This document shows, piece by piece, positions 7,583-58,766 of a stretch of DNA of 64,000 nt; positions within the stretch are counted from its first letter, which is position 1; the number at the start of each line of letters is the position of its first letter. Made by a program: the position numbers and the translations under genes. The notes below the pieces were generated by a model. The model made no database searches, had not been told where the DNA came from, and saw only the letters and a program-made list of their open reading frames with translations. The DNA is taken from positions 1,302,001-1,366,000 of the forward strand of contig NZ_CP119081.1 in assembly GCF_004524775.2 (NCBI RefSeq), read 5' to 3'. Source of the DNA: Helcococcus ovis. Lineage in GTDB: Bacteria; Bacillota; Clostridia; Tissierellales; Peptoniphilaceae.

Positions 7583-8620
7583 ATGACACATATTTACACA
7601 GGTGCAAACTGGAATAACAACGACGACGAATTTACACAATTATTTTATCAACAAAATTTATCACAATTTTGGAGACCTGAAGATATTTCTCTACAGTCCG
7701 ACTTAAATGTATGGAATACTCTTCCGGAACATGTAAAAAAAGCTTATGTTAGAAATTTACAGGTTTTGACGTTTTTAGACACTTACCAAGGTGATATAGG
7801 GATGCCTGTAGTTTCACGTTCTTTAGATGATGACCAACATCAAAGAAAAGCGATAATAAACTTCATGGCAGCTATGGAAAATGCTGTGCATGCAAAGTCA
7901 TATTCCAATATTTTTATGACATATCTAAACGGTAGTGAAATAGACGAGTTATTCAAATGGGGTGAAAATAACAAAGAATTACAAGCATTTCTAAATTTAA
8001 TCGTAGGACAATATAAAGATCTTGACAAATTAACTTATGAAAAAAATTACGGATTTAAAAAAGTAGACCCGTTAAAGTTTAAGATTGCTCAATATAAAGC
8101 CTGCGTTGCATCAACATTTTTAGAAACATACTTGTTCTATTCTGGCTTCTACTATCCACTATACTTCTACGGACAAGGCAAACTAATGCAAGCCGGAGAA
8201 ATTATAAACCTAATTTTAAGAGATGAATCCATACATGGAGTTTATATCGGGAAAATAGCAATAGAACTTTATAGAGAATTTGACGAAAAATTACAAAAAA
8301 AATTACACTCTTGGGCAATGGATTTAATGAGTAAACTATATGGTCATCAATTAACGCTAATCGAAAGTATATATGACGAAGTGGGTTTATCTCATGACGT
8401 TAAGGTATTTGTTAGATACAATGCAAATAAAGCACTGATGAATATAGGTTTTGACCCATATTTTGAATATGAAGAGGTAAATCCGGTTATATTAAATGGT
8501 CTAAATACTGAAACAAAAACTATGGACAATTTCTCAATGAAGGGCAATGGATATCAAAAAATGGTTACCGAATCAATAAAAAATGAAGATTTTGAATTTA
8601 AAAAACCTAAAATTAAATAA
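7583..8620 (+). CDS. nrdF: Class Ib ribonucleoside-diphosphate reductase, beta subunit
   Basis: A 345-residue ferritin-like protein that carries the dimetal centre and tyrosyl radical. Metal-ligand segments are visible: the first Glu/His helix in AAMENAVHAKSYSNIF and the second in ILRDESIHGVYIG. An AAGGAGAT site lies between nrdE and its start (10-bp gap). It completes nrdI-nrdE-nrdF and is followed by a very strong hairpin. Confidence 0.95.
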   Translation: MTHIYTGANWNNNDDEFTQLFYQQNLSQFWRPEDISLQSDLNVWNTLPEHVKKAYVRNLQVLTFLDTYQGDIGMPVVSRSLDDDQHQRKAIINFMAAMENAVHAKSYSNIFMTYLNGSEIDELFKWGENNKELQAFLNLIVGQYKDLDKLTYEKNYGFKKVDPLKFKIAQYKACVASTFLETYLFYSGFYYPLYFYGQGKLMQAGEIINLILRDESIHGVYIGKIAIELYREFDEKLQKKLHSWAMDLMSKLYGHQLTLIESIYDEVGLSHDVKVFVRYNANKALMNIGFDPYFEYEEVNPVILNGLNTETKTMDNFSMKGNGYQKMVTESIKNEDFEFKKPKIK

Positions 8621-8627
8621 AAAATAT

Positions 8628-8705
8628 CCCCCCCCGAATTAAGGTGACCTCCTTCAAGTTGGCCCTAAAACCAACTTGAAGGAGGTCACCTTAATTCGGG
8701 GGGGG
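8628..8705. terminator. Perfect 35-bp-stem hairpin after nrdF
   Basis: Positions 8628-8662 pair without a mismatch with 8671-8705 around the loop CCCTAAAA; the stem opens with a run of eight C and closes with eight G. It contains TGACCTCCTT and AAGTTGG, which recur in other intergenic hairpins of this window. It follows the nrd operon and could stop transcription from both sides, though it lacks a classic T run directly after the stem. Confidence 0.7.
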
Positions 8706-8720
8706 TATTATAGTCTTTAT

Positions 8721-9002
8721 TTATTTATTTAAGCTTTTAATTATATTTTTATTTATTTTTTTAGTAAACTCATCAAAATCAGAATTTATCTTCTGAGTTT
8801 TATTAAAAATATCCTGAAACATTTCTCTTAATTCCTCTATTTTATAAATATTTCTTAAATGCTCATTAATCATGGTAACATCAACTTCAAACAATTACAC
8901 CATCTACTTTTGAGTTAGCCAAAATGTCTCATCACTATAAACTACATCAACAGAAACATTCCTATCATCTTCTTGATATAAAATAATTTTGTCTTTTTCC
9001 AT
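8721..9002 (-). pseudogene. Decayed rhuM-family gene
   Basis: An ATG at 9002 behind AAGGAG begins a frame with the RhuM N-terminus (KIILYQEDDRNVSVDVVY, then ETFWLTQK). The frame continues to a stop at 8721 with two in-frame nonsense codons where the family has QMAELF: TAG, ATG, GTG, TAA, TTG, TTT. After these it reads on as EVDVTMINEHLRNIYK. The remaining 94 codons are about a quarter of a full RhuM. A matching promoter (TATAAT, 18-bp spacer, TTACAA) is still visible upstream. RhuM proteins are putative DNA-binding proteins of genomic islands; this copy is dead. Confidence 0.8.
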
Positions 9003-16728: not shown

Positions 16729-16761
16729 CTCACGTTTTGAGTTAGAAAATCTTTAAAATGT
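16729..16761 (-). terminator. Riboswitch expression platform: intrinsic terminator
   Basis: On the minus strand AAAGATTTTCTAACTC and GTGAGAAAGTCTTT pair around AAAAC and are followed by TTTTTT, between the purine aptamer and the pbuX ribosome binding site. Confidence 0.85.
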
Positions 16762-16765
16762 CAAT

Positions 16766-16836
16766 CCTAACCCATAGACTATAATTTTTGGTTATAGGTA
16801 GATACGCCCCACCATATTAAGGGCTTATATGAGTTT
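16766..16836 (-). promoter_or_regulatory. Purine riboswitch, guanine/xanthine-family aptamer of pbuX-xpt
   Basis: The minus strand reads ACTCATATAAGCCC, AATATGGTGGGGCGTATC, TACCTATAACC, then TATAGTCTATGGGTT. These are the conserved parts of the purine aptamer: P1, J1/2 (TATAA), the ATATGG and GTnTCTACC segments, and the 3' strand GTCTATGGGT. The base at the specificity position is C, which marks guanine-type aptamers. Ligand binding should favour the downstream terminator and shut off the operon. Confidence 0.93.
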
Positions 16837-16859
16837 AATATTCTTTTTTGTAATTATTT

Positions 16860-25538: not shown

Positions 25539-26155
25539 TGATTAAACTTGTAGGAATAGTTGGTACAAATAACCAAAATTCAACAAATAGAAAACTTTTA
25601 GAATATATACAAACTCAATTTTTTTATAAAGTTGATGTAGAATTAATTGAAATTAAGGATGTGCCCCTAATTGGCACCATAAAGGGAGATGAAATCCCCG
25701 AAATAGTTATGAATATTTCAAATAAAATTGAAAAATCTGATGGCGTAATCATTGCAACACCGGAATACGACCATTCTCCAACTGCATCTTTACTAAACCT
25801 ATTGTCATGGCTATCGTATAAAATTCATCCTTTATATAAAAAGCCTGTAATGATAGTCGGCGCTTCTTATGGTGCTTTGGGTTCGTCAAGAGCTCAATAT
25901 ATGCTAAGACAAATATTAAAGTCTCCGGAACTTGAAGCTAATGTTTTAAGTTCTGAATATCTTTTGCCTTATTCAAAAAAGGCATTTGACGAAATGGGAG
26001 ATCTAAGAGGTAGAGATAAAATTCGAGAAATGGAAAATATTTTTGATGAATTTTTAGCATTTGTGGATTTTGTAAATAAGTCGAATGCTGAAAATTTAAT
26101 CAACATCCATGATTTTGATAATTTCAAATGGGATTCAATAAAGGAGGAAGAATAA
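25538..26155 (+). CDS. NADPH-dependent FMN reductase family protein (copy 1)
   Basis: 205 residues from the ATG at 25538 (behind GGAGG). A flavodoxin-like fold is indicated by VGIVGTNNQNSTNRKLL, IIATPEYDHSPTASLLNLL, and PVMIVGASYGALGSSRAQ. Enzymes of this family use NAD(P)H to reduce FMN, quinones or azo/nitro compounds. One-base overlaps with apbE upstream and copy 2 downstream indicate an operon for flavin handling. Confidence 0.85.
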   Translation: MIKLVGIVGTNNQNSTNRKLLEYIQTQFFYKVDVELIEIKDVPLIGTIKGDEIPEIVMNISNKIEKSDGVIIATPEYDHSPTASLLNLLSWLSYKIHPLYKKPVMIVGASYGALGSSRAQYMLRQILKSPELEANVLSSEYLLPYSKKAFDEMGDLRGRDKIREMENIFDEFLAFVDFVNKSNAENLINIHDFDNFKWDSIKEEE

Positions 26156-26808
26156 TGAAATTTGTAGGAATTGCCGGATCAATTTCCGATAAATCGTATA
26201 ATAAAATGCTTTTAGATTATGCAAAATTCATCTTCAATGATGTAGTTGAAATTGAAATTTTAGATATAAATGACATTCCATTATTTAACCAAGATTTAAA
26301 TCAAGACGATTACCCAAAAATCAAAGAATTATCAGATAAAATCGAATCATCTGACGGTGTAATCATTGTAACCCCAGAACATAACTACACAATACCCGCA
26401 GTATTAAAGAGCGTAATCGAGTGGTTTTCGTTCAATGTTCACCCATTAAAAAATAAACCGGTTATGATTTTAGGTGCATCTTATACAGAACAGGGAACTT
26501 CCAGAGCTCAACTACACCTAAGACAAATCCTTGATTCTCCGGGAGTTGATGCATTTGTAATGCCGGGAAATGAATTTCTATTATCAAATGTAAGAGAAAA
26601 ATTTGATAAAGATGGCACACTTATCCACGAACAAACATCTGACTACTTAGAACACTGTCTTTTAAGATTTATGAAATACGCAGAACTAATTAAAAAATTA
26701 GATATAGACAACATTGAAAGCAAATTTACTCTAACACTAAAAGCCGGGGGATATGTAAACATAGATGATCCATATTCAGATGGTACAGCCGGAGCTTCAG
26801 AATATTAA
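26155..26808 (+). CDS. NADPH-dependent FMN reductase family protein (copy 2)
   Basis: 217 residues from the ATG at 26155 (behind GGAGG). Same family as the upstream gene, with FVGIAGSISDKSYNKMLL, IIVTPEHNYTIPAVLKSVIE and PVMILGASYTEQGTSRAQ. It differs in a C-terminal extension (AGGYVNIDDPYSDGTAGAS). The tandem pair probably arose by duplication and may form heterodimers, as this family commonly dimerises. Ends just before a large hairpin. Confidence 0.85.
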   Translation: MKFVGIAGSISDKSYNKMLLDYAKFIFNDVVEIEILDINDIPLFNQDLNQDDYPKIKELSDKIESSDGVIIVTPEHNYTIPAVLKSVIEWFSFNVHPLKNKPVMILGASYTEQGTSRAQLHLRQILDSPGVDAFVMPGNEFLLSNVREKFDKDGTLIHEQTSDYLEHCLLRFMKYAELIKKLDIDNIESKFTLTLKAGGYVNIDDPYSDGTAGASEY

Positions 26809-26810
26809 AA

Positions 26811-26952
26811 TAAAAATAAAGAGATTTCACTTACGGCACTGGTCCTCGGAGCTTGAGCTGACCTCCATAAAATTGATTTTGATTTTTCAACTTTTTAAGG
26901 TCAGTTCAACTATCGCTCCTGTGGAGGTGCCTAAGTGGAACTCTTTATTTTT
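26811..26952. terminator. Large modular hairpin, long form (copy 1)
   Basis: AAATAAAGAG at one end pairs with CTCTTTATTT at the other; inside, GGCAC...TCC...GGAGC pairs with GCTCC...GGA...GTGCC, and an inner hairpin TGACCTCC...AAATTGA / TCAACTTTT...AGGTCA fills the tip. It is nearly the same as the element at 29276-29416. The A and T runs at the two ends suit a two-way terminator. Confidence 0.75.
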
Positions 26953-27043
26953 TTGCGAAAACCATTAGATTATGTTAGAATATAAACAAGGATAACGATA
27001 TCCTGTAGAGATTAAAATGGGATTTTTTAATAAGGAGTAAGAT

Positions 27044-27601
27044 ATGAATAAACAATATGATTTAAAGAAGGATATAAAATTTGAAATAATATTTCTTATT
27101 ACTTCAATAATTTTAACATTGGTAAATTTTAAGTATAAATCAGATTATAGAGATTTAACGCTAATATTTGCAGCCATTTTTGTGGGATTAAAAACAATTA
27201 TTTATTTTCTAAATAACAAAGCTGAAAAAACTAAAAATACTAAATTGCTCAAATCAATAAAAAAATATAATAAAATTATAAACAGAGTTTTTAGTGTTTG
27301 TATGATATTTATTTTAATTGGTGTTATTGTCTCAATTTTTAATAATGTAAATATTAAAGATAAAAAAGATATATCGGCTATTGTAATATCAATAATAATT
27401 ATTGCTTTAGCTATTATATCAGCTCTATTAGCTCGTAAAATTTTAATAAAATATATCTTCAAACAAGAAATACATACAGCGTCTGAAAAATACCCATTTT
27501 TCTTACTATTAAATATTATTATTGGATTTGTGATTTTTGTAATTTTAGGAATGTTAATTTTATTAGCATTACCATATTTAGGCATTAAAATTTTTCAATA
27601 A
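27044..27601 (+). CDS. Unknown membrane protein
   Basis: A 185-residue protein with about five hydrophobic helices (residues 14-28, 40-56, 84-104, 113-130, 150-178) and a basic loop around 60-80. AAGGAG precedes the ATG. I recognise no family. It sits between two members of the modular hairpin family, so it is probably transcribed alone. Confidence 0.65.
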   Translation: MNKQYDLKKDIKFEIIFLITSIILTLVNFKYKSDYRDLTLIFAAIFVGLKTIIYFLNNKAEKTKNTKLLKSIKKYNKIINRVFSVCMIFILIGVIVSIFNNVNIKDKKDISAIVISIIIIALAIISALLARKILIKYIFKQEIHTASEKYPFFLLLNIIIGFVIFVILGMLILLALPYLGIKIFQ

Positions 27602-27607
27602 TTAAAA

Positions 27608-27685
27608 ATAAATGGATCCCACGCAGGCACCTCCGCAGGAGCTTTTGCTCCGAGGACTAGTGCAGCTAGTGGAATTCCTTTATTT
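27608..27685. terminator. Modular hairpin, short form (copy 1)
   Basis: CACGCAGGCACCTCCGCAGG plus AGC, TTTT, then GCTCCGAGGACTAGTGC form the stem, bracketed by AATAAA and TTTATT. It is the reverse complement of the outer part of the long form. Located between convergent genes. Confidence 0.75.
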
Positions 27686-29221
27686 CTTAAATTTATACAC
27701 TTCATCAAACATTCTTAAATATTCTTCATCATTATTATGAGTAACTATTATTATGGTCTTATTAGTTTTCAATAATAATTTCGTCAATTCTATTTCACTA
27801 TTTTTATCAATATTTGCAAAAAATTCATCTAAAATTATTATTGGCTTATAGGAATTTATCGCTCTAGCAATATTCACTCTATCTTTTTCTCCCATACTCA
27901 ATCCATTTATATCTTTAGATTTTAAACTTTCAATGATTTGTAAACTTTCAAAATTAGGTTCATTATTCGGGTTTGAAATTTTAATATTTTCCAAAGCACT
28001 ATCATTTAATACAAATAAATTTGATACATACATTAAAATTTCGTTTGTATTTATGGTATTTATATCAATTCCATCTATAAAAATTTGATTGTCACTATTA
28101 TTAAGTTTTTTAGATAATAGCTTCATTACAGTAGATTTTCCACTACCATTTTCACCGATAATTGCATATTTTTTTCCTTTTGAAAATGTCATATTAATAC
28201 CATTCATACTAAAATCATTGATTGAATAGCTTAAATTTCTCAATTCTATTTTTTCAAAATTGATAATTTTTTCTTTTAGTAAATCTTCATTCTTGTCTTC
28301 AAGATAAAAATCCAGTTTATCGATGATTTTTGAAGATGATTTTATGGTAATAATCAAATAAATCATATCTCTTATAGGAATTGCAACTAAATCAACAAAT
28401 CCAATAAGTGCCATGAATGAGCCTATTTCCATCATTCCCATTGATACGATTACAATACCAAGTATGAATGTAACTATGTTGATAAAATAAAGCGAACCAC
28501 CTGAAAAAATATTTGTAAATGAAATATATTTCACTAAATTATACACACTCATTTCATGTTCAACATTATATTTATCAAATTTTTTCACGAATTCTTCACT
28601 TGTGTTATAGTCAAAAATTTCCTTGCCTTCCATTAAATTTTCAAATATAGATACAAATTCAGCATTTTTATCACTTTCAGCCCTTCTCTTGTCTTTCATC
28701 TTTTCCCCAACGATTTTAGGAATGAAGAATGAAATTGCTGAGCTTATAATAATTGCAATTGTTAAAATCCAACTTAAATAAAACATGTACGCTATGTAAA
28801 CTAAAAATGAAATAATACTAATATATAGGGAAATGTAGCAATAAATGTAATTTTCATAAATTGTTTCAGTATCTCTAATTATTGAATTTATAATATCTCC
28901 AGTAGTTTTTTGATTTAACTTTTTCGCATTCATTTTGGTAATGGATTCAAAAACTTTTCCTTTAATATATATGGAATACTTAGCTCCAAACCATCCAATG
29001 CTTATTTTCTTCTTGTATTCAAAAAGTAAGAATAATAATATTGAAAATATGTACAATGTCCCATATCCAAGCGCTGTTTGTAAATTCAAATTTTTATAAT
29101 TATCAATTACTAATTTAGTGCAAATCGGGATTAAAGAAATAAACAATATACTCAAAAATGTGTACAAAACAATCTTAAATACTGATTTTTTATTATTCGA
29201 TATGTAATTTTTTATATTCAT
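27680..29221 (-). CDS. ABC exporter (fused membrane and ATPase domains)
   Basis: 513 residues. The first 300 hold about six membrane helices of the type I exporter fold; the ATPase domain has Walker A GENGSGKST, signature LSMGEKDRVN (instead of LSGGQ), Walker B PIIILDEFFANID and the switch His in VTHNNDE. It is somewhat shorter than the usual 570-600 residues. Substrate unknown; it should work as a homodimer since no partner gene is adjacent. Confidence 0.85.
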   Translation of the reverse strand: MNIKNYISNNKKSVFKIVLYTFLSILFISLIPICTKLVIDNYKNLNLQTALGYGTLYIFSILLFLLFEYKKKISIGWFGAKYSIYIKGKVFESITKMNAKKLNQKTTGDIINSIIRDTETIYENYIYCYISLYISIISFLVYIAYMFYLSWILTIAIIISSAISFFIPKIVGEKMKDKRRAESDKNAEFVSIFENLMEGKEIFDYNTSEEFVKKFDKYNVEHEMSVYNLVKYISFTNIFSGGSLYFINIVTFILGIVIVSMGMMEIGSFMALIGFVDLVAIPIRDMIYLIITIKSSSKIIDKLDFYLEDKNEDLLKEKIINFEKIELRNLSYSINDFSMNGINMTFSKGKKYAIIGENGSGKSTVMKLLSKKLNNSDNQIFIDGIDINTINTNEILMYVSNLFVLNDSALENIKISNPNNEPNFESLQIIESLKSKDINGLSMGEKDRVNIARAINSYKPIIILDEFFANIDKNSEIELTKLLLKTNKTIIIVTHNNDEEYLRMFDEVYKFKK

Positions 29222-29275
29222 ATTTAATCCTTTTATTGTTATTTTTTCTTTATATATTTTATATTAAAGTTAATT

Positions 29276-29416
29276 AAAAATAAAGAGTTTCCACTTACGG
29301 CACTAGTCCTCGGAGCTTGAAATGACCTCCTTAAAGTTGATTTTGATTTTCAACTTTTCATGGTCAGTTCAACTGTCGCTCCTGCGGAGGTGCCTAAGTG
29401 GAACTCTTTATTTTTT
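29276..29416. terminator. Modular hairpin, long form (copy 2)
   Basis: Same plan as 26811-26952: outer stem AAATAAAGAG / CTCTTTATTT, middle stem with CCTCGGAGC and GCTCCTGCGGAGG, inner stem TGACCTCC...AAAGTTGA / TCAACTTTT...GGTCA. It lies upstream of the ABC exporter rather than after a gene end, so it may also be part of a leader. Confidence 0.75.
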
Positions 29417-29757
29417 ATGTATAGGAGTATGAATTATCTCAATTAAAAGAAAATTCAAAAAGAGATAATAAAATTTTTGCTAAAAATGTCCGCAAAAATT
29501 CGATTTTAAAATAAGCGATAACAAAATTTCAATGTAAAATTATCTCAAAAATTACATTCATAAAATTGAGATAACAAAATTTGTCAAAATATTGAAAAAT
29601 TTCATATTGAAAATAATCTCAAAATAGAAAATTTCTAAAATGCGATAAAAATCAAACCGAAAAAATTACTCACAAAATTAAAATATTAAAATAAGCGATA
29701 ATTTTTCAATAAAAAATAGTACCCACAATAATTAAAAATAAAAAAATGAGATAAAAA
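29417..29757. other. AT-rich stretch with recurring GAGATAA/GCGATAA motifs
   Basis: No gene. The motif RGATAA (GAGATAATAAAATTT, GCGATAACAAAATTT, GAGATAACAAAATTT, GCGATAATTTTT) occurs at least six times on the plus strand and as TTATCTC/AATCTC on the other, in otherwise A/T sequence between two modular hairpins. Confidence 0.5.
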
Positions 29758-29758
29758 A

Positions 29759-29836
29759 ATAAAGCATCCCACGCAGGCACCTCCGCAGGAGCTTTTGCTC
29801 CGAGGACTAGTGCCTTCAGTGGGAATGCTTTATTTT
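29759..29836. terminator. Modular hairpin, short form (copy 2)
   Basis: ATAAAGCATCCCAC and GTGGGAATGCTTTAT close a stem with CACCTCCGCAGGAGC, TTTT, GCTCCGAGGACTAGTGCC inside. The core is identical to that of 27608-27685 and it directly follows the CNNM/CorC gene. Confidence 0.8.
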
Positions 29837-29839
29837 ACT

Positions 29840-31099
29840 TTATTTTATTTTTTTTATAACCACTTTCTCAATCCTATTTCCTTCAATCTCTTTTACAGTA
29901 AATCTAAAGTTTTCAAAAACGAATGAATCTCCGAAGTGTGGCATTTTGTCAAGAATTTCAACTACAAATCCGGCTATTGTATTTGAGTTATATTCTTCTG
30001 CATCAGAAATTTTTAAAAATTCAAAGATTTTATCAAGTGAACATCTGCCACTTACTTCGTAAATTTTATTTCTTTCTAATACTTTTATTTCTGATTCTAT
30101 TTCATCGGATTCGTCCCAAATTTCTCCAACTAATTCTTCAAGGATGTCTTCCATTGTTACAATACCTTCAAGGCCGCCATGTTCGTCTATGATTGCCGCC
30201 ATGTGTTTCTTTTCCTTTTGCATCAATTTTAATAATTCGGATAGTTTAAGCATACCCGGAATGTATAGAATATCTGAAATTATGGAATTTATTGTTAAAT
30301 CCGGTTCTCCTTTTTGTTTTCTTCTTAAATATTTGTGAAAATCTCTTTCTAAAATAATACCTAGGACTTTGTCTACTGTTTCTTCATATACAATAAGTCT
30401 AGAGTACGAATATTCATCAAATATTTTTTCTATTTCTTCATCTGTGTCATTTATCTCCACGCCAATAATGTCAACTCTGGGAATTAATATACTTGAAACG
30501 CTAACATCATCAAATTCAACAGCAGCTTTTACAAGTACGTGTTCATCATCTTCAATGCTTCCTCCAACTTTCGCCTCATCAATATATGTCAAAAGCTCTT
30601 CTTCACTTATTGAATGATCAATATTAACTTTTACAAATTTTCTAATTAATTTTTGCCATTGAGATAATGTCCATATTACGGGTTTTAAAATAATCATCAT
30701 AAAAGAAAGTGGTTTTGTAAATTTTATAGCCAAACTTTCCGGCATGATTTTTGCTATTAACTTCGGTGTAATTTCTCCTAAAATCAATAGCAAAATTGTA
30801 GTTGCTACAGTTGAAACTAATGCTCCATAAACAGGAAATATCTTTACAAAAAATAGTGTTGCAATTGCAGAACTGCCTATATTTACAATATTATTCCCTA
30901 TTAATATCGCTGAAAGTAGGTCATCATATTTTTTATTAATTTCTAATGTTTTCTTTACCTTTTTATCCCCATCTTTTAATCTAGTTTTTAATTTTGCAAC
31001 CCTCAAAGATGTAAATGCTGTCTCTGAAGCTGAAAAAAATGCTGATAGTATAATACAAATAAAAAACAATATCACACTATATATCTGCTCAGAATCCAT
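29840..31099 (-). CDS. CNNM/CorC (HlyC) family membrane protein
   Basis: 419 residues: an N-terminal DUF21/CNNM membrane domain with 3-4 helices (ILSAFFSASETAFTSLRVAK), two CBS domains (about residues 215-330; LIPRVDIIGVEIND, VTMEDILEELVGEIWDESDE) and a C-terminal CorC/HlyC domain (EVSGRCSLDKIFEFL). The family is linked to Mg2+ or Co2+ efflux; older annotations call it hemolysin. Terminates in a modular hairpin. Confidence 0.88.
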   Translation of the reverse strand: MDSEQIYSVILFFICIILSAFFSASETAFTSLRVAKLKTRLKDGDKKVKKTLEINKKYDDLLSAILIGNNIVNIGSSAIATLFFVKIFPVYGALVSTVATTILLLILGEITPKLIAKIMPESLAIKFTKPLSFMMIILKPVIWTLSQWQKLIRKFVKVNIDHSISEEELLTYIDEAKVGGSIEDDEHVLVKAAVEFDDVSVSSILIPRVDIIGVEINDTDEEIEKIFDEYSYSRLIVYEETVDKVLGIILERDFHKYLRRKQKGEPDLTINSIISDILYIPGMLKLSELLKLMQKEKKHMAAIIDEHGGLEGIVTMEDILEELVGEIWDESDEIESEIKVLERNKIYEVSGRCSLDKIFEFLKISDAEEYNSNTIAGFVVEILDKMPHFGDSFVFENFRFTVKEIEGNRIEKVVIKKIK

Positions 31100-42137: not shown

Positions 42138-42263
42138 TTTTAAAATAAATATAAATCTATTACTTTTTTGTAATATTTAACAATAAATTACAAATTTATT
42201 ACAAAAAACTTGACAAATTATTACGATAAATATATCATATTAAAAGGTTCCAACGGAGGTATT

Positions 42264-43430
42264 ATGAACTTTTTTAAAAAGAATAAAAAAGCTATACTCA
42301 GTGCATTAACATTAGTAACTGTTATAGGATTAGGAGAAATATCTATTGCTTCCAAACCAAAAAACATAGAGTTAAACATTGATGGTAACAGAAAAACTAT
42401 TACCACTTCTGCAAAGACTGTAGAAGCTGTTCTAAAGGAACAAAATATAGCTACAAAAAACACAGAAATTTTAAATGATTTAAAGTCAGTTATTAATCAA
42501 AAAACTGTTATAACTATAAATAATAAAAAATCTATTTTATTCAAAAACAAAGGAAAAGATTTAACAGTTTCAACATTTAAGAATAATGTGTCAGATTTTC
42601 TAAATGAATATGGTATTAAACCTGATAGTGATGATAATGTAATTCCAAAAGTTACTTCATCAATTAAAAATGGGGATACCGTAACATTTGATGAAGTAGA
42701 AGTATTAAATTACAATAAAAAAGAAAGCATTAAGCACAAAACGGAAACTACATATGATTTCAATAAAAAATATGGCGAAAAAACAATAAGCATCAAAGGA
42801 AATGATGGTATAAAGCAAAACGAATATACAAAAATTACAATAAATGGTAAAGTAGTTTCAAATAATAAAAAATCTGAATCTATAATACTTTCACCTATTA
42901 CAGAAAAGATTATATTAGGTTCAAAAGAAGTATTAAAAGAAAAAGTAAAATTTAAGACAGAAAAAAAAGCAAATAGTGATATGTATGAAGGTTATACAAG
43001 AGTAGTTCAAAAAGGTAAAAATGGACTATCCGAAAACACATACAAACATGAAAATAAAAATAAAACGTTAGTTAGTTCAAAACAGTTAGAAAAACCAACT
43101 AATGAAATTGTTGAATATGGAACCAAAGAAAGACCTTCAGTATCAAGCTCATCCTATCAATACTCATTAGGTCAATTCCAATTTAACGGAGTTATATATT
43201 GGGGCGGATACAAATTCACATATTACTCACAAAGCGTATTGCCTGGCGGCGGATTATACATACCTGGTAGACATATAAATGAAGATGGTTATGTAGCAGA
43301 TGAAGATGGATATATCGTATTAGCAAATGATGCCCCAAAAGGCACTATAATAGATACACCTTTCGGATATAAAGGAAAAGTATATGACCGTGGCACATAC
43401 GGAAATCATATTGATGTTTATATTAGATAA
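42264..43430 (+). CDS. YabE-like secreted wall hydrolase: DUF348, G5 and 3D domains
   Basis: 388 residues from the ATG at 42264 (GGAGG at 42255). A signal peptide or N-terminal anchor (AILSALTLVTVIGLGEISIA), two DUF348-like segments (KTITTSAKTVEAVLKEQNI and a second near 105-150), a G5 domain (KEKVKFKTEKKANSDMYEG) and a C-terminal 3D-type domain (PKGTIIDTPFGYKGKVYDRG, GNHIDVYIR). Family members are lytic transglycosylases (Sps/RpfB type) that remodel peptidoglycan. The catalytic Asp residues are only partly recognisable: the usual VDTGG reads IDTPF. The final 71 bp are duplicated at 46449. Confidence 0.85.
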   Translation: MNFFKKNKKAILSALTLVTVIGLGEISIASKPKNIELNIDGNRKTITTSAKTVEAVLKEQNIATKNTEILNDLKSVINQKTVITINNKKSILFKNKGKDLTVSTFKNNVSDFLNEYGIKPDSDDNVIPKVTSSIKNGDTVTFDEVEVLNYNKKESIKHKTETTYDFNKKYGEKTISIKGNDGIKQNEYTKITINGKVVSNNKKSESIILSPITEKIILGSKEVLKEKVKFKTEKKANSDMYEGYTRVVQKGKNGLSENTYKHENKNKTLVSSKQLEKPTNEIVEYGTKERPSVSSSSYQYSLGQFQFNGVIYWGGYKFTYYSQSVLPGGGLYIPGRHINEDGYVADEDGYIVLANDAPKGTIIDTPFGYKGKVYDRGTYGNHIDVYIR

Positions 43431-43444: not shown

Positions 43445-43530
43445 AAAGTTATTACAGATCATTAAGGTGCCCCCAAAAAGTTGTACTTAAAAACCAACTT
43501 TTTGGGGCCGCTTAATTTTGTAATAACTTT
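43445..43530. terminator. Modular hairpin between convergent genes
   Basis: AAAGTTATTACA and TGTAATAACTTT close the outer stem; inside, ATTAAG...CCCCAAAAAGTTG pairs with CAACTTTTTGGGG...CTTAAT. The inner part resembles the hairpin after nrdF (ATTAAGGTG...AAGTTGG). T run on the plus side. Confidence 0.8.
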
Positions 43531-51510: not shown

Positions 51511-52524
51511 ATGACAAAAATTTATATACCAAAAGATTATAAATCAAGCCTAAACTTGGCTCAAACACAATATTTTATTAAAGAAATTAAGGATTTTTTC
51601 CAACAAACCTTAGCAAAAAATCTTGATTTACTTAGAGTATCAGCTCCATTATTTGTCAGATCAGCAACTGGTGTAAATGATAATTTATCCGGACATGAAT
51701 CACCTGTATCATTTAATATTAAAGAAAATGGTGGTGAAACTAAATTAGAAATAGTACACTCTTTAGCTAAATGGAAAAGGGCTGCTTTAGCAAGATACAA
51801 AATTCCTATGCACAAAGGTATCTATGCAGATATGAATGCTATCAGATCATTTGAAGAATTTGATAATACACATTCTATTTATGTTGATCAATGGGATTGG
51901 GAAAAAGTAATAAATAGTTCAGATAGAACTTTTGAATATTTACAAGAAACAGTCAATACAATATTCCAAACGATGAAAGATTTAGAAAGTTATCTTCAAT
52001 TAAAAATTGACGGATATAAAAAGCTATTACCCGAAAAAATTACATTCATCAAATCTCAAGATTTAGAAGACCTATATCCATCACTAACTCCGGAAAATAG
52101 AGAAAAAGAATTTGCTAAAAAACATGGAGCAATCTTTGTTATGCAAATTGGGGGATTATTAAAATCCGGTGTAAAACATGGAGATAGATCTCCTGATTAT
52201 GATGACTGGGAATTAAATGGCGATCTAATTGTCTGGAATCCAATTTTAGAAAACGCCTTAGAACTAAGCAGCATGGGAATTAGAGTAACACCAAAATCCC
52301 TAAAATCCCAATTAGAAAAAACTAATACATTAGATAGATTAAATAAGGAATACCACAAAAATCTTATAGAAGGAAAACTACCTCTTACAATTGGTGGTGG
52401 TATCGGCCAATCAAGAATCTGTATGTTTTTCTTACAAAAAGCACATATCGGAGAAGTACAAGTTTCCATATGGCCGGAAGAAGTTATAAAAGAATGTGAA
52501 GAAAATGATGTAATATTGTTATAG
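51511..52524 (+). CDS. asnA: Aspartate--ammonia ligase (asparagine synthetase A)
   Basis: 337 residues, class II tRNA-synthetase-like fold: LFVRSATGVNDNLSGHESPV, VHSLAKWKRAALARYKIP, SIYVDQWDWEKVI and the C-terminal GGGIGQSRICMFFL. It makes asparagine from aspartate, ammonia and ATP. GGAG precedes the start; monocistronic. Confidence 0.95.
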   Translation: MTKIYIPKDYKSSLNLAQTQYFIKEIKDFFQQTLAKNLDLLRVSAPLFVRSATGVNDNLSGHESPVSFNIKENGGETKLEIVHSLAKWKRAALARYKIPMHKGIYADMNAIRSFEEFDNTHSIYVDQWDWEKVINSSDRTFEYLQETVNTIFQTMKDLESYLQLKIDGYKKLLPEKITFIKSQDLEDLYPSLTPENREKEFAKKHGAIFVMQIGGLLKSGVKHGDRSPDYDDWELNGDLIVWNPILENALELSSMGIRVTPKSLKSQLEKTNTLDRLNKEYHKNLIEGKLPLTIGGGIGQSRICMFFLQKAHIGEVQVSIWPEEVIKECEENDVILL

Positions 52525-52585
52525 TAAAACAAATCTACCATTAACGCCACTAATCCAGACTTCTAAAGAAATTCACAAAAAATAT

Positions 52586-53972: not shown

Positions 53973-54043
53973 AAAAATAAAGTACAAACTTGAACAATCC
54001 GCAGGACTTCGTCCGAGGACGTGAAAGTTTGTACTTTATTTTT
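53973..54043. terminator. Hairpin upstream of the YitT-like gene
   Basis: AAAAATAAAGTACAAACTT (53973-53991) pairs perfectly with AAGTTTGTACTTTATTTTT (54025-54043); the tip has GGAC/GTCC and CCGAGGAC as in the other modular hairpins. It ends the IS region and may shield yitT from read-through. Confidence 0.8.
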
Positions 54044-54092: not shown

Positions 54093-54986
54093 ATGAAAAA
54101 AATATCTCTTCGACCAAAATTAGGTCAAGAACATAAACCAATGTCTAAAACAAAAGAATTTGTTTTATTAAACATAGGGGTTATACTTACAGCAATCGGT
54201 GTTTATTATTTTAAATTTCCAAATCATTTTGCAATAGGCGGCGTGTCTGGTATATCTGTTATTTTACATGCTGTTTTTCCAAATATGAATGCGGCTACAT
54301 TCAATCTTATATTTAATATGATTTTATTATTAATAGGTATATTTTTCTTCGGTAAAAATTTCGGTATTAAAACAGCATACGCAACAATAGTAATTTCATT
54401 GTTAGTTCAGTTTTTCTCAATTTGTTACCCTATAACTAAACCATTTACAAATCAACCTCTTTTAGAGCTAATTTATGCAGTTCTATTGCCGGGAGTTGGT
54501 GGTGGTTTATTGTTTAATTGCAAAGCTTCATCAGGTGGTACTGATATAGTTGCAATGATATTAAAAAAGTATACATCATTGGATATAGGTAGAGCATTAC
54601 TTGTAAGTGATATTTTGATTACCGCTTTATCATTTAAGATATTTGGGGCATTAACAGGATTGCTTGCAATGTTAGGTTTGATTGCAAAAGCATTTTTAAT
54701 TGACATTACTATAGAAAACATAAATAGAGTAAAATTATTTTCAATAGTTACAGAATATCCTGATGAAATCATAGAATTTATAAAAAATGATTTACATAGA
54801 GGCGGTACTCGTTTTAATGGTGTTGGAATTTACATGAATAAGGAAAAAACAATGATAAATGTTGCAGTAAGTAATTATGAAGGAGTTTTATTAAGAGACT
54901 TTGCAAGAAAACATGACCCTAATTGCTTTATTACAATATTAAATACTAGTCAAATAGTTGGTAAAGGATTCCATTTTGTAAGTTAA
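54093..54986 (+). CDS. YitT-family membrane protein (DUF161/DUF2179)
   Basis: 297 residues from the ATG at 54093 (AGGAG upstream; earlier in-frame starts overlap the hairpin). Five to six membrane helices with FKFPNHFAIGGVSGISVIL and CKASSGGTDIVAMILKKYTS, and a C-terminal cytoplasmic DUF2179 domain (HRGGTRFNGVGIYMNKEKTM). Function unsettled. Confidence 0.85.
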   Translation: MKKISLRPKLGQEHKPMSKTKEFVLLNIGVILTAIGVYYFKFPNHFAIGGVSGISVILHAVFPNMNAATFNLIFNMILLLIGIFFFGKNFGIKTAYATIVISLLVQFFSICYPITKPFTNQPLLELIYAVLLPGVGGGLLFNCKASSGGTDIVAMILKKYTSLDIGRALLVSDILITALSFKIFGALTGLLAMLGLIAKAFLIDITIENINRVKLFSIVTEYPDEIIEFIKNDLHRGGTRFNGVGIYMNKEKTMINVAVSNYEGVLLRDFARKHDPNCFITILNTSQIVGKGFHFVS

Positions 54987-54992
54987 AAAAAT

Positions 54993-55037
54993 TTGCTTAG
55001 ATTTTCAAATTTTACTTTGATTATCTAAGCAAGTTTT
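54993..55037. terminator. Two-way terminator between yitT and an ABC operon
   Basis: TTGCTTAGAT (54993-55002) pairs with ATCTAAGCAA (55023-55032) followed by GTTTTTT; a very similar element lies at 58720-58765. Confidence 0.8.
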
Positions 55038-55045
55038 TTATTATA

Positions 55046-58518: not shown

Positions 58519-58719
58519 TATTTTTTGCTCCTTTTTATATGTATATTTATATTCTCTTCTTTTTAAAAAAATTATACAAAAAAAAGAAATCGTTGTCAAA
58601 AAAATATTAAATAATAAGCGAATTTCATAAATATAATGGTTTTACAACAAATAATGTTAATGGATAAATTCAACTTCACTACTTGTGCCAATGGGTATTT
58701 GACAAAAAACCTAAAAAAC

Positions 58720-58766
58720 TTGCTTAAATTTTCAAATTTTAGTTTGATTATCTAAGCAAGTTTTTG
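58720..58766. terminator. Two-way hairpin terminator
   Basis: AACTTGCTTA and TCTAAGCAAGTT pair with T runs on both strands; near copy of 54993-55037. Confidence 0.7.

Follow-up and report, generated by a model that had tools for sequence, protein, structure and literature searches.

The closest published counterparts of the hairpins described here are short interspersed repeats, foremost the SPRITE elements of Streptococcus pneumoniae, with BOX and REP elements next in rank. SPRITEs occur in about 30 copies, are nearly confined to S. pneumoniae and its closest relative, lie near gene 3' ends and combine a long stem and U-rich tract with AAAA/TTTT ends (PMC3049150). As that account describes them, their driver is unknown, and they are seen as parasites by origin that may have been recruited as terminators (PMC3049150). 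Likened by description, the family that we report from Helcococcus ovis (hereafter the core family) shares with SPRITEs a number of about 30 copies, restriction to one species, terminator-like form and location at gene 3' ends, with dispersed short copies in one species (29) and none in 129 genomes of its taxonomic family. It differs in design, since the SPRITE is described as a simple 18-bp duplex whereas the core family has constant loops between two variable stems, keeps one orientation and can contain nested IS3-type hairpins. BOX elements of S. pneumoniae and the core family are both modular, structured and species-biased, but BOX joins its boxA-boxB(n)-boxC modules in series whereas the core family nests a loop within a stem (PMC3049150). 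REPs and the core family are both intergenic palindromes near 3' gene ends, and some REP dimers sit inside longer palindromes; as reviewed, REPs are 20–40 bp long and carry a GTAG or CGTC tag, which the core family lacks, and the main text of the review does not contain the word Firmicutes (PMC3733652). CGTC occurs in the core family inside one variant (B) only, and by eye no constant tag stands at the outer ends. Integron attC sites carry RYYYAAC / GTTRRRY boxes at the hairpin base; here the base of the outer stem is AAATAAA / TTTATTT-like and variable (by eye). Among the literature matches listed, neither the core printed as a repeat nor such a repeat for this lineage was found. What is new is a terminator-like interspersed repeat of unusual constant-loop and variable-stem design, the kind itself being already known from other bacteria.

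The window, a stretch of 64,000 nucleotides analysed as a whole, contains five copies of the core family (Table 1). All seven hairpins examined in it fold far better than dinucleotide shuffles (z from -4.3 to -12.9; 0 of 200 shuffles equal in each case), so that the hairpins noticed by the sequence-only reading at 26811-29836 and elsewhere are real, with positions agreeing within a few bases. Its description of a modular hairpin family with nesting was also borne out: the short forms (27607-27682 and 29757-29833) have the same core as the long forms (26817-26950 and 29281-29413) in the opposite orientation, the long forms hold an inner hairpin in the P4 loop, and the reappearance at 53973-54041 is a variant of the core. 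Each copy spans about 75 bp and comprises a variable stem P1, a constant irregular core and a variable stem P4. On the strand of our first search model (R1), of which the sense strand is the reverse complement, the order is P1, small loop, P2, C / CTA, P3, GCA / GA, P4 and apical loop. P1, the outer stem, has about 13–21 pairs with feet like AAATAAA / TTTATTT, P2 is mostly GNCAC/GTGNC, P3 is TCC/GGA, and the internal loops of the core are UCC-GCA / GA-GGA and C / CUA. The constant part reads CACCTCCGCA...GAGGACTAGTG; the variant B subtype (53973, L016a, L016b) differs by a shorter P2 and reads CACGTCC...TGCGGATTG on the sense strand. Few matches to the core half-motifs are expected in the window by chance, 0.10 and 0.22, against five and four observed. 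Rfam 15 gave no match at gathering score for the hairpins (window; six loci). Elsewhere the window carries a purine riboswitch on the minus strand at 16755-16852 (Rfam RF00167, 65 bits).

Table 1. Core-family hairpins, IS3-type hairpins and a half copy in the window (z, fold against dinucleotide shuffles; bits, score with model R1)
Feature	Position	Strand	Scores	Context
Core-family hairpin, long form	26817..26950	+ (sense; model strand -)	66.3 bits, E 4.9e-15; z -9.2	Reads out of upstream gene 26128-26808; IS3-type module in P4 loop
IS3-type terminal-repeat hairpin (module 2)	26854..26908			Inside 26817 copy
Core-family hairpin, short form (L024)	27607..27682	- (sense -)	72.9 bits; z -4.3	Gene 27680-29221 ends there; gene 27044-27601 ends at opposite side
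Core-family hairpin, long form (L023)	29281..29413	+	73.4 bits; z -10.0	No adjacent gene end; IS3-type module in P4 loop
IS3-type terminal-repeat hairpin (module 2)	29318..29371			Inside 29281 copy
Core-family hairpin, short form (L022)	29757..29833	- (sense -)	73.8 bits; z -9.1	Gene 29840-31099 ends there
Core-family hairpin, variant B	53973..54041	-	58.3 bits; z -8.4	Decayed IS3 transposase fragment nearby
Probable remnant of core 5' half (ACCATTAACGCCACTAATCC)	52537..52556	+		In sense, just downstream of gene 51511-52524
Stand-alone module-2-related hairpin	8628..8705		Only 18.7 bits; z -12.9	Not core; 35-bp perfect stem at end of gene 7583-8620
Stand-alone module-2-related hairpin	43445..43530		z -8.1	Not core; at end of gene 42210-43430

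The 1.77-Mb genome contains 29 copies of the core family, a lower bound made up of 24 places found with R1, two found by pattern (L016a, L016b) and three found with a second model, R2 (L194, L195, L201). R1 was built from 12 copies and applied at E<=1 (weakest copy L041, E 0.0011); of the 3110 first-look candidates in its genome search, 150 were scored, and L016a and L016b were absent from its list. R2 was built from 27 rows and gave 27 hits in the own genome. Half copies exist too, a 3' half just after L036 (by eye) and the 5' half listed in Table 1. Covariance searching, proposed along with the sequence-only reading, thus extended the family within its own genome (24 copies with the first model, 27 with the second) but recovered none in relatives. 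R1 detected no copy in 59 relatives and, with laxer filters and E<=10, none in two same-genus genomes; R2 with strict filters detected none in 129 other genomes of the family Peptoniphilaceae, with 37 candidates scored per genome, among the genomes listed. The exact core pattern was absent from genome contigs of 85k species and from the 129 family genomes, a scan that would miss diverged copies because a near-identical pattern recovers only 8 of the 29 own copies. The own genome served as positive control in the R1, R2 and pattern searches of relatives. One exact-pattern match in each of two viral scans was taken as chance (~70% GC, no fold into the motif), and BLAST of plasmids and phages gave weak matches only, at E 0.8 or worse among the matches listed. 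As far as tested, the core family looks restricted to one species. A search with MetK gave 80 loci, none recognisable as belonging to the own genus; those with names include the Tissierellia Anaerosphaera, Peptoniphilus and Anaerococcus, 58-63% identical.

The inner TGACCTCC...AAGTTG module, which had been read as a part of the family, is a separate IS3-type terminal-repeat hairpin (module 2) inside core copies. Head-to-head repeats TGAACTGACC...AAAGTTG occupy the P4 loop of five of the 29 copies (L023, L029, L031, L038, L040). Ends of this type (TGAACTGACCCC..AAAGTTG) bound 1.45-kb OrfA/OrfB elements in the viral contigs L093 and L099, and the proteins encoded between them match the IS3 transposase family (NF033516, E 1.1e-97 and 1.4e-103); module 2 thus has the terminal repeats of that family. 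IS3 elements duplicate 3 bp of their target. The P4 loop lacks module 2 in L027 and is filled by it in L031, with the 3-bp near-duplication CCT/CCG at the insertion borders; by eye, the border triplets of module 2 are CCT/CCG, TCT/CCT and GCT/ACT, with one mismatch each, and none in L040. Nesting thus reflects a MITE-like element inserted in another repeat's loop and is no property of one modular family. Likeness to an IS3-family MITE concerns the inner module only and lies in its terminal ends, the difference being that no IS3 copy with such ends was found in the own genome, only two decayed IS3 fragments in other surroundings. The hairpins at 8628-8705 and 43445-43530 are, as had been supposed, relatives of the inner module, but they are not members of the core family; the latter has the 18-mer TGCCCCCAAAAAGTTGTA in common with L031 (by eye), and a stand-alone module-2 hairpin is also present in the same-genus genome G001 (L077 2310-2360). 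At 8611-8722, a stem built round an IS3-type terminal repeat pair has eight G/C pairs at its foot.

In 20 of the 29 core copies a gene read in the sense direction ends upstream, no more than 14 nt from the sense 5' side of the match (gaps -5 to 14), with genes called as longest ORFs and the distance cut-off picked after data inspection. These are 17 of the 24 R1 copies together with L194, L195 and L198 (=L016a), and at four of them (L024, L026, L030, L037) a convergent gene also ends within 25 nt on the other side. L201 is the sole copy with only an antisense gene ending at it. Eight copies have no adjacent gene end (L018, L020, L023, L032, L034, L039, L041, L016b), though an antisense gene ends 27 nt from L041. 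The orientation, 20 against one, corresponds to about 1e-5 in a sign test. Most ordinary terminator-like hairpins found in the window begin some -1 to 16 nt past the stop codon, so the core copies occupy a terminator's place; these distances are a rough guide only, as the scan was crude, gave no hairpin for most genes, even those known here to end at hairpins, and left a few distant or weak hairpins (gaps 37-94) uncounted. The earlier view of the hairpins as terminator modules agrees with this position and with their structure, a stable stem with a U-rich tract just past the gene as in intrinsic terminators, and each core copy, mostly at a gene end, probably acts as the intrinsic terminator of that gene. 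T content at the two feet is 12.2 and 13.0 per 20 nt (28 of 29 copies), which amounts to equal U/A tracts, and such a terminator would therefore be bidirectional. Because of this equality, termination alone fails to explain the orientation. In the same-genus genomes G001 and G002, short, plain hairpins with T-runs follow the orthologue of gene 26128-26808, and in G002 the CorC-like gene as well. DNA of these genomes is mostly only 64-76% identical in the compared regions, too diverged for an empty site to be readable.

Changes in the stems are paired. Alignment A2 (27 rows, 25 distinct) is biased towards the model to which it was fitted; in it 87.6% of cells are paired, and both partners have changed in 18 of 25 pairs (a count reached by 9 of 500 shuffles). 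Its covariation score of 0.456 compares with 0.151 after shuffling (0 of 500) and with no more than 0.128 when partners are slid. A MAFFT alignment of 12 copies (A1) agrees (15 of 27 pairs changed on both sides; 0.293 against 0.127). P3 is almost invariant over the 25 distinct sequences, and P1 and P4 vary. The claim that compensatory changes keep the structure is thus supported by the paired changes, but selection on RNA is not required for them. An RNA acting from one strand should show a preference for G-U on that strand. Among 726 ungapped stem positions of 26 copies, counted under a scheme that scores G-U the same as A-C and sets gaps aside, 668 are Watson-Crick, 19 G-U, 12 A-C and 27 other; the excess of G-U over A-C is not significant (one-sided P 0.14). 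Since the two mismatches are about equal, covariation alone is no proof of an RNA, and the paired changes fit selection on both-strand stems or template-switch repair. Template switching in replication is a published route to paired changes in RNA hairpins (PMC8794818). That the asymmetric core loops were not 'corrected' away points to selection on the loops. That the outer stem always pairs is too strong a statement for the whole genome: L039 joins arms of two subfamilies, and L016b has a broken outer stem.

L039, with a broken outer stem, is a hybrid: its 5' arm belongs to the GAGATTTCACTTA subfamily, and its 3' arm resembles the one in the neighbouring copy L036. L018 and L021 have a 3' flank in common and inverted orientation, and L016a and L016b form a tandem duplication. 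These cases show exchange or duplication at core elements. Close inverted core pairs are found in the window (26817/27607 and 29281/29757) and in the genome (43519/43681). The suggestion that the modules are mobile or convertible gains from the dispersal, the arm-swapped L039 and the 3-bp near-duplication at the IS3-type insertion; against it, no empty site and no target duplication of the core were found. Nor does the core family resemble a classical MITE, as P1 varies between copies and a duplication was not seen by eye. Three candidate drivers were considered and rejected: a Y1 transposase, for which the genome has a single IS200-like gene without the core beside it, IS21, whose three near-identical copies lack the core at their ends, and the decayed IS3 fragments, whose ends likewise lack it. 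The IS200-like Y1 gene is embedded among small pilin-like genes arranged in tandem (L017, G000:C1:1241229-1244588), whose spacers carry repeated AGCCTTGCC...GCTCTTGCGGGGTT. At G000 1195376-1200211, a 4.7-kb segment containing an IstB-like fragment is bounded by the inverted copies L018 and L021, whose inner flanks are homologous.

We think it reasonably likely that the core family is a small interspersed repeat family of about 75 bp and at least 29 copies, restricted to one species as tested and serving as a putative bidirectional intrinsic terminator. Its spread would be recent and due to transposition or recombination. Its role in transcription termination is predicted from position and form, and the paired stem changes may reflect both repair by template switching and selection that keeps the terminator stable. 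A protein might recognise the constant irregular core, as RNA or as single-stranded DNA, which would keep the core while P1 and P4 drift; from its constancy and polarity we infer that the core is the recognition unit. The IS3-type MITE would have come later, with the P4 loop as a harmless landing place. A pure termination role is opposed by the fixed orientation and constant loops, which would then be needless. A rival reading is a structured RNA, a 3' UTR element in sense orientation that acts in trans or in cis, binds a protein or the ribosome through its internal loops and is kept in its copies by selection; in its favour, orientation to the upstream gene is fixed (20 against 1 of 29) despite equally T-rich feet, and P3 hardly changes over 25 distinct sequences while P1 and P4 do. 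We consider this unlikely, however, because the pairs are nearly all Watson-Crick (668, with 19 G-U and 12 A-C) with no clear wobble bias on the sense strand, an Rfam match is absent, and the genes adjoining core copies have by eye no evident common function.

A REP-like DNA element, moved as a single-stranded hairpin by a tyrosine (Y1/RAYT-type) or other recombinase and owing its polarity to insertion, would share the intergenic gene-end position, some close inverted pairs, species restriction and conserved hairpin irregularity reported for REPs (PMC3733652). With only one Y1 transposase gene, which the core does not flank, no GTAG- or CGTC-tagged unit of 20–40 bp and a variable outer stem that has no counterpart in most REPs, such an origin is quite unlikely. 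Very unlikely, in our judgement, is that these are ordinary terminators made alike only by segmental duplication and gene conversion, with no element and no special core. The common flanks of L018/L021, the tandem L016a/L016b and the L036 arm in the L039 hybrid fit that account, but flanks are mostly unrelated, and a constant core with differing stems is the reverse of the pattern left by whole-region duplication. The favoured repeat family with terminator function can be carried further, at a correspondingly low probability, to a structure-read mobile terminator private to one species: a protein would bind the two asymmetric loops, in single-stranded DNA or 3' UTR RNA, leaving the stems free to change as long as they pair, and a mobilisation or regulatory system would set or keep the orientation after stop codons. 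If the core is read by a protein, the family would offer a clean system for following the spread of structure-recognised elements and their use as gene-end signals, and for telling whether paired stem changes arise through selection on RNA or through template switching during replication.

Two other intergenic or terminator-like repeats were noticed in the window. Between the core copies ending at 29413 and starting at 29757 lies an AT-rich repeat of ~300-330 bp (29432-29756) in which G[AC]GATAA motifs recur mostly every 53 bases, with one gap of 74. It has five further long copies in the genome (L101, L102, L103, L104, L107; 61-78% identity) plus fragments. A larger composite element of core and AT-rich repeat was considered and rejected, the ~330-bp repeat being an independent family; the core is absent within 200 bases of four other copies (L101, L103, L104, L107). 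The hairpins at 54986-55039 and 58714-58765 are very similar to each other (TTGCTTA...TAAGCAAGTTTT) and constitute another repeated terminator-like pair.
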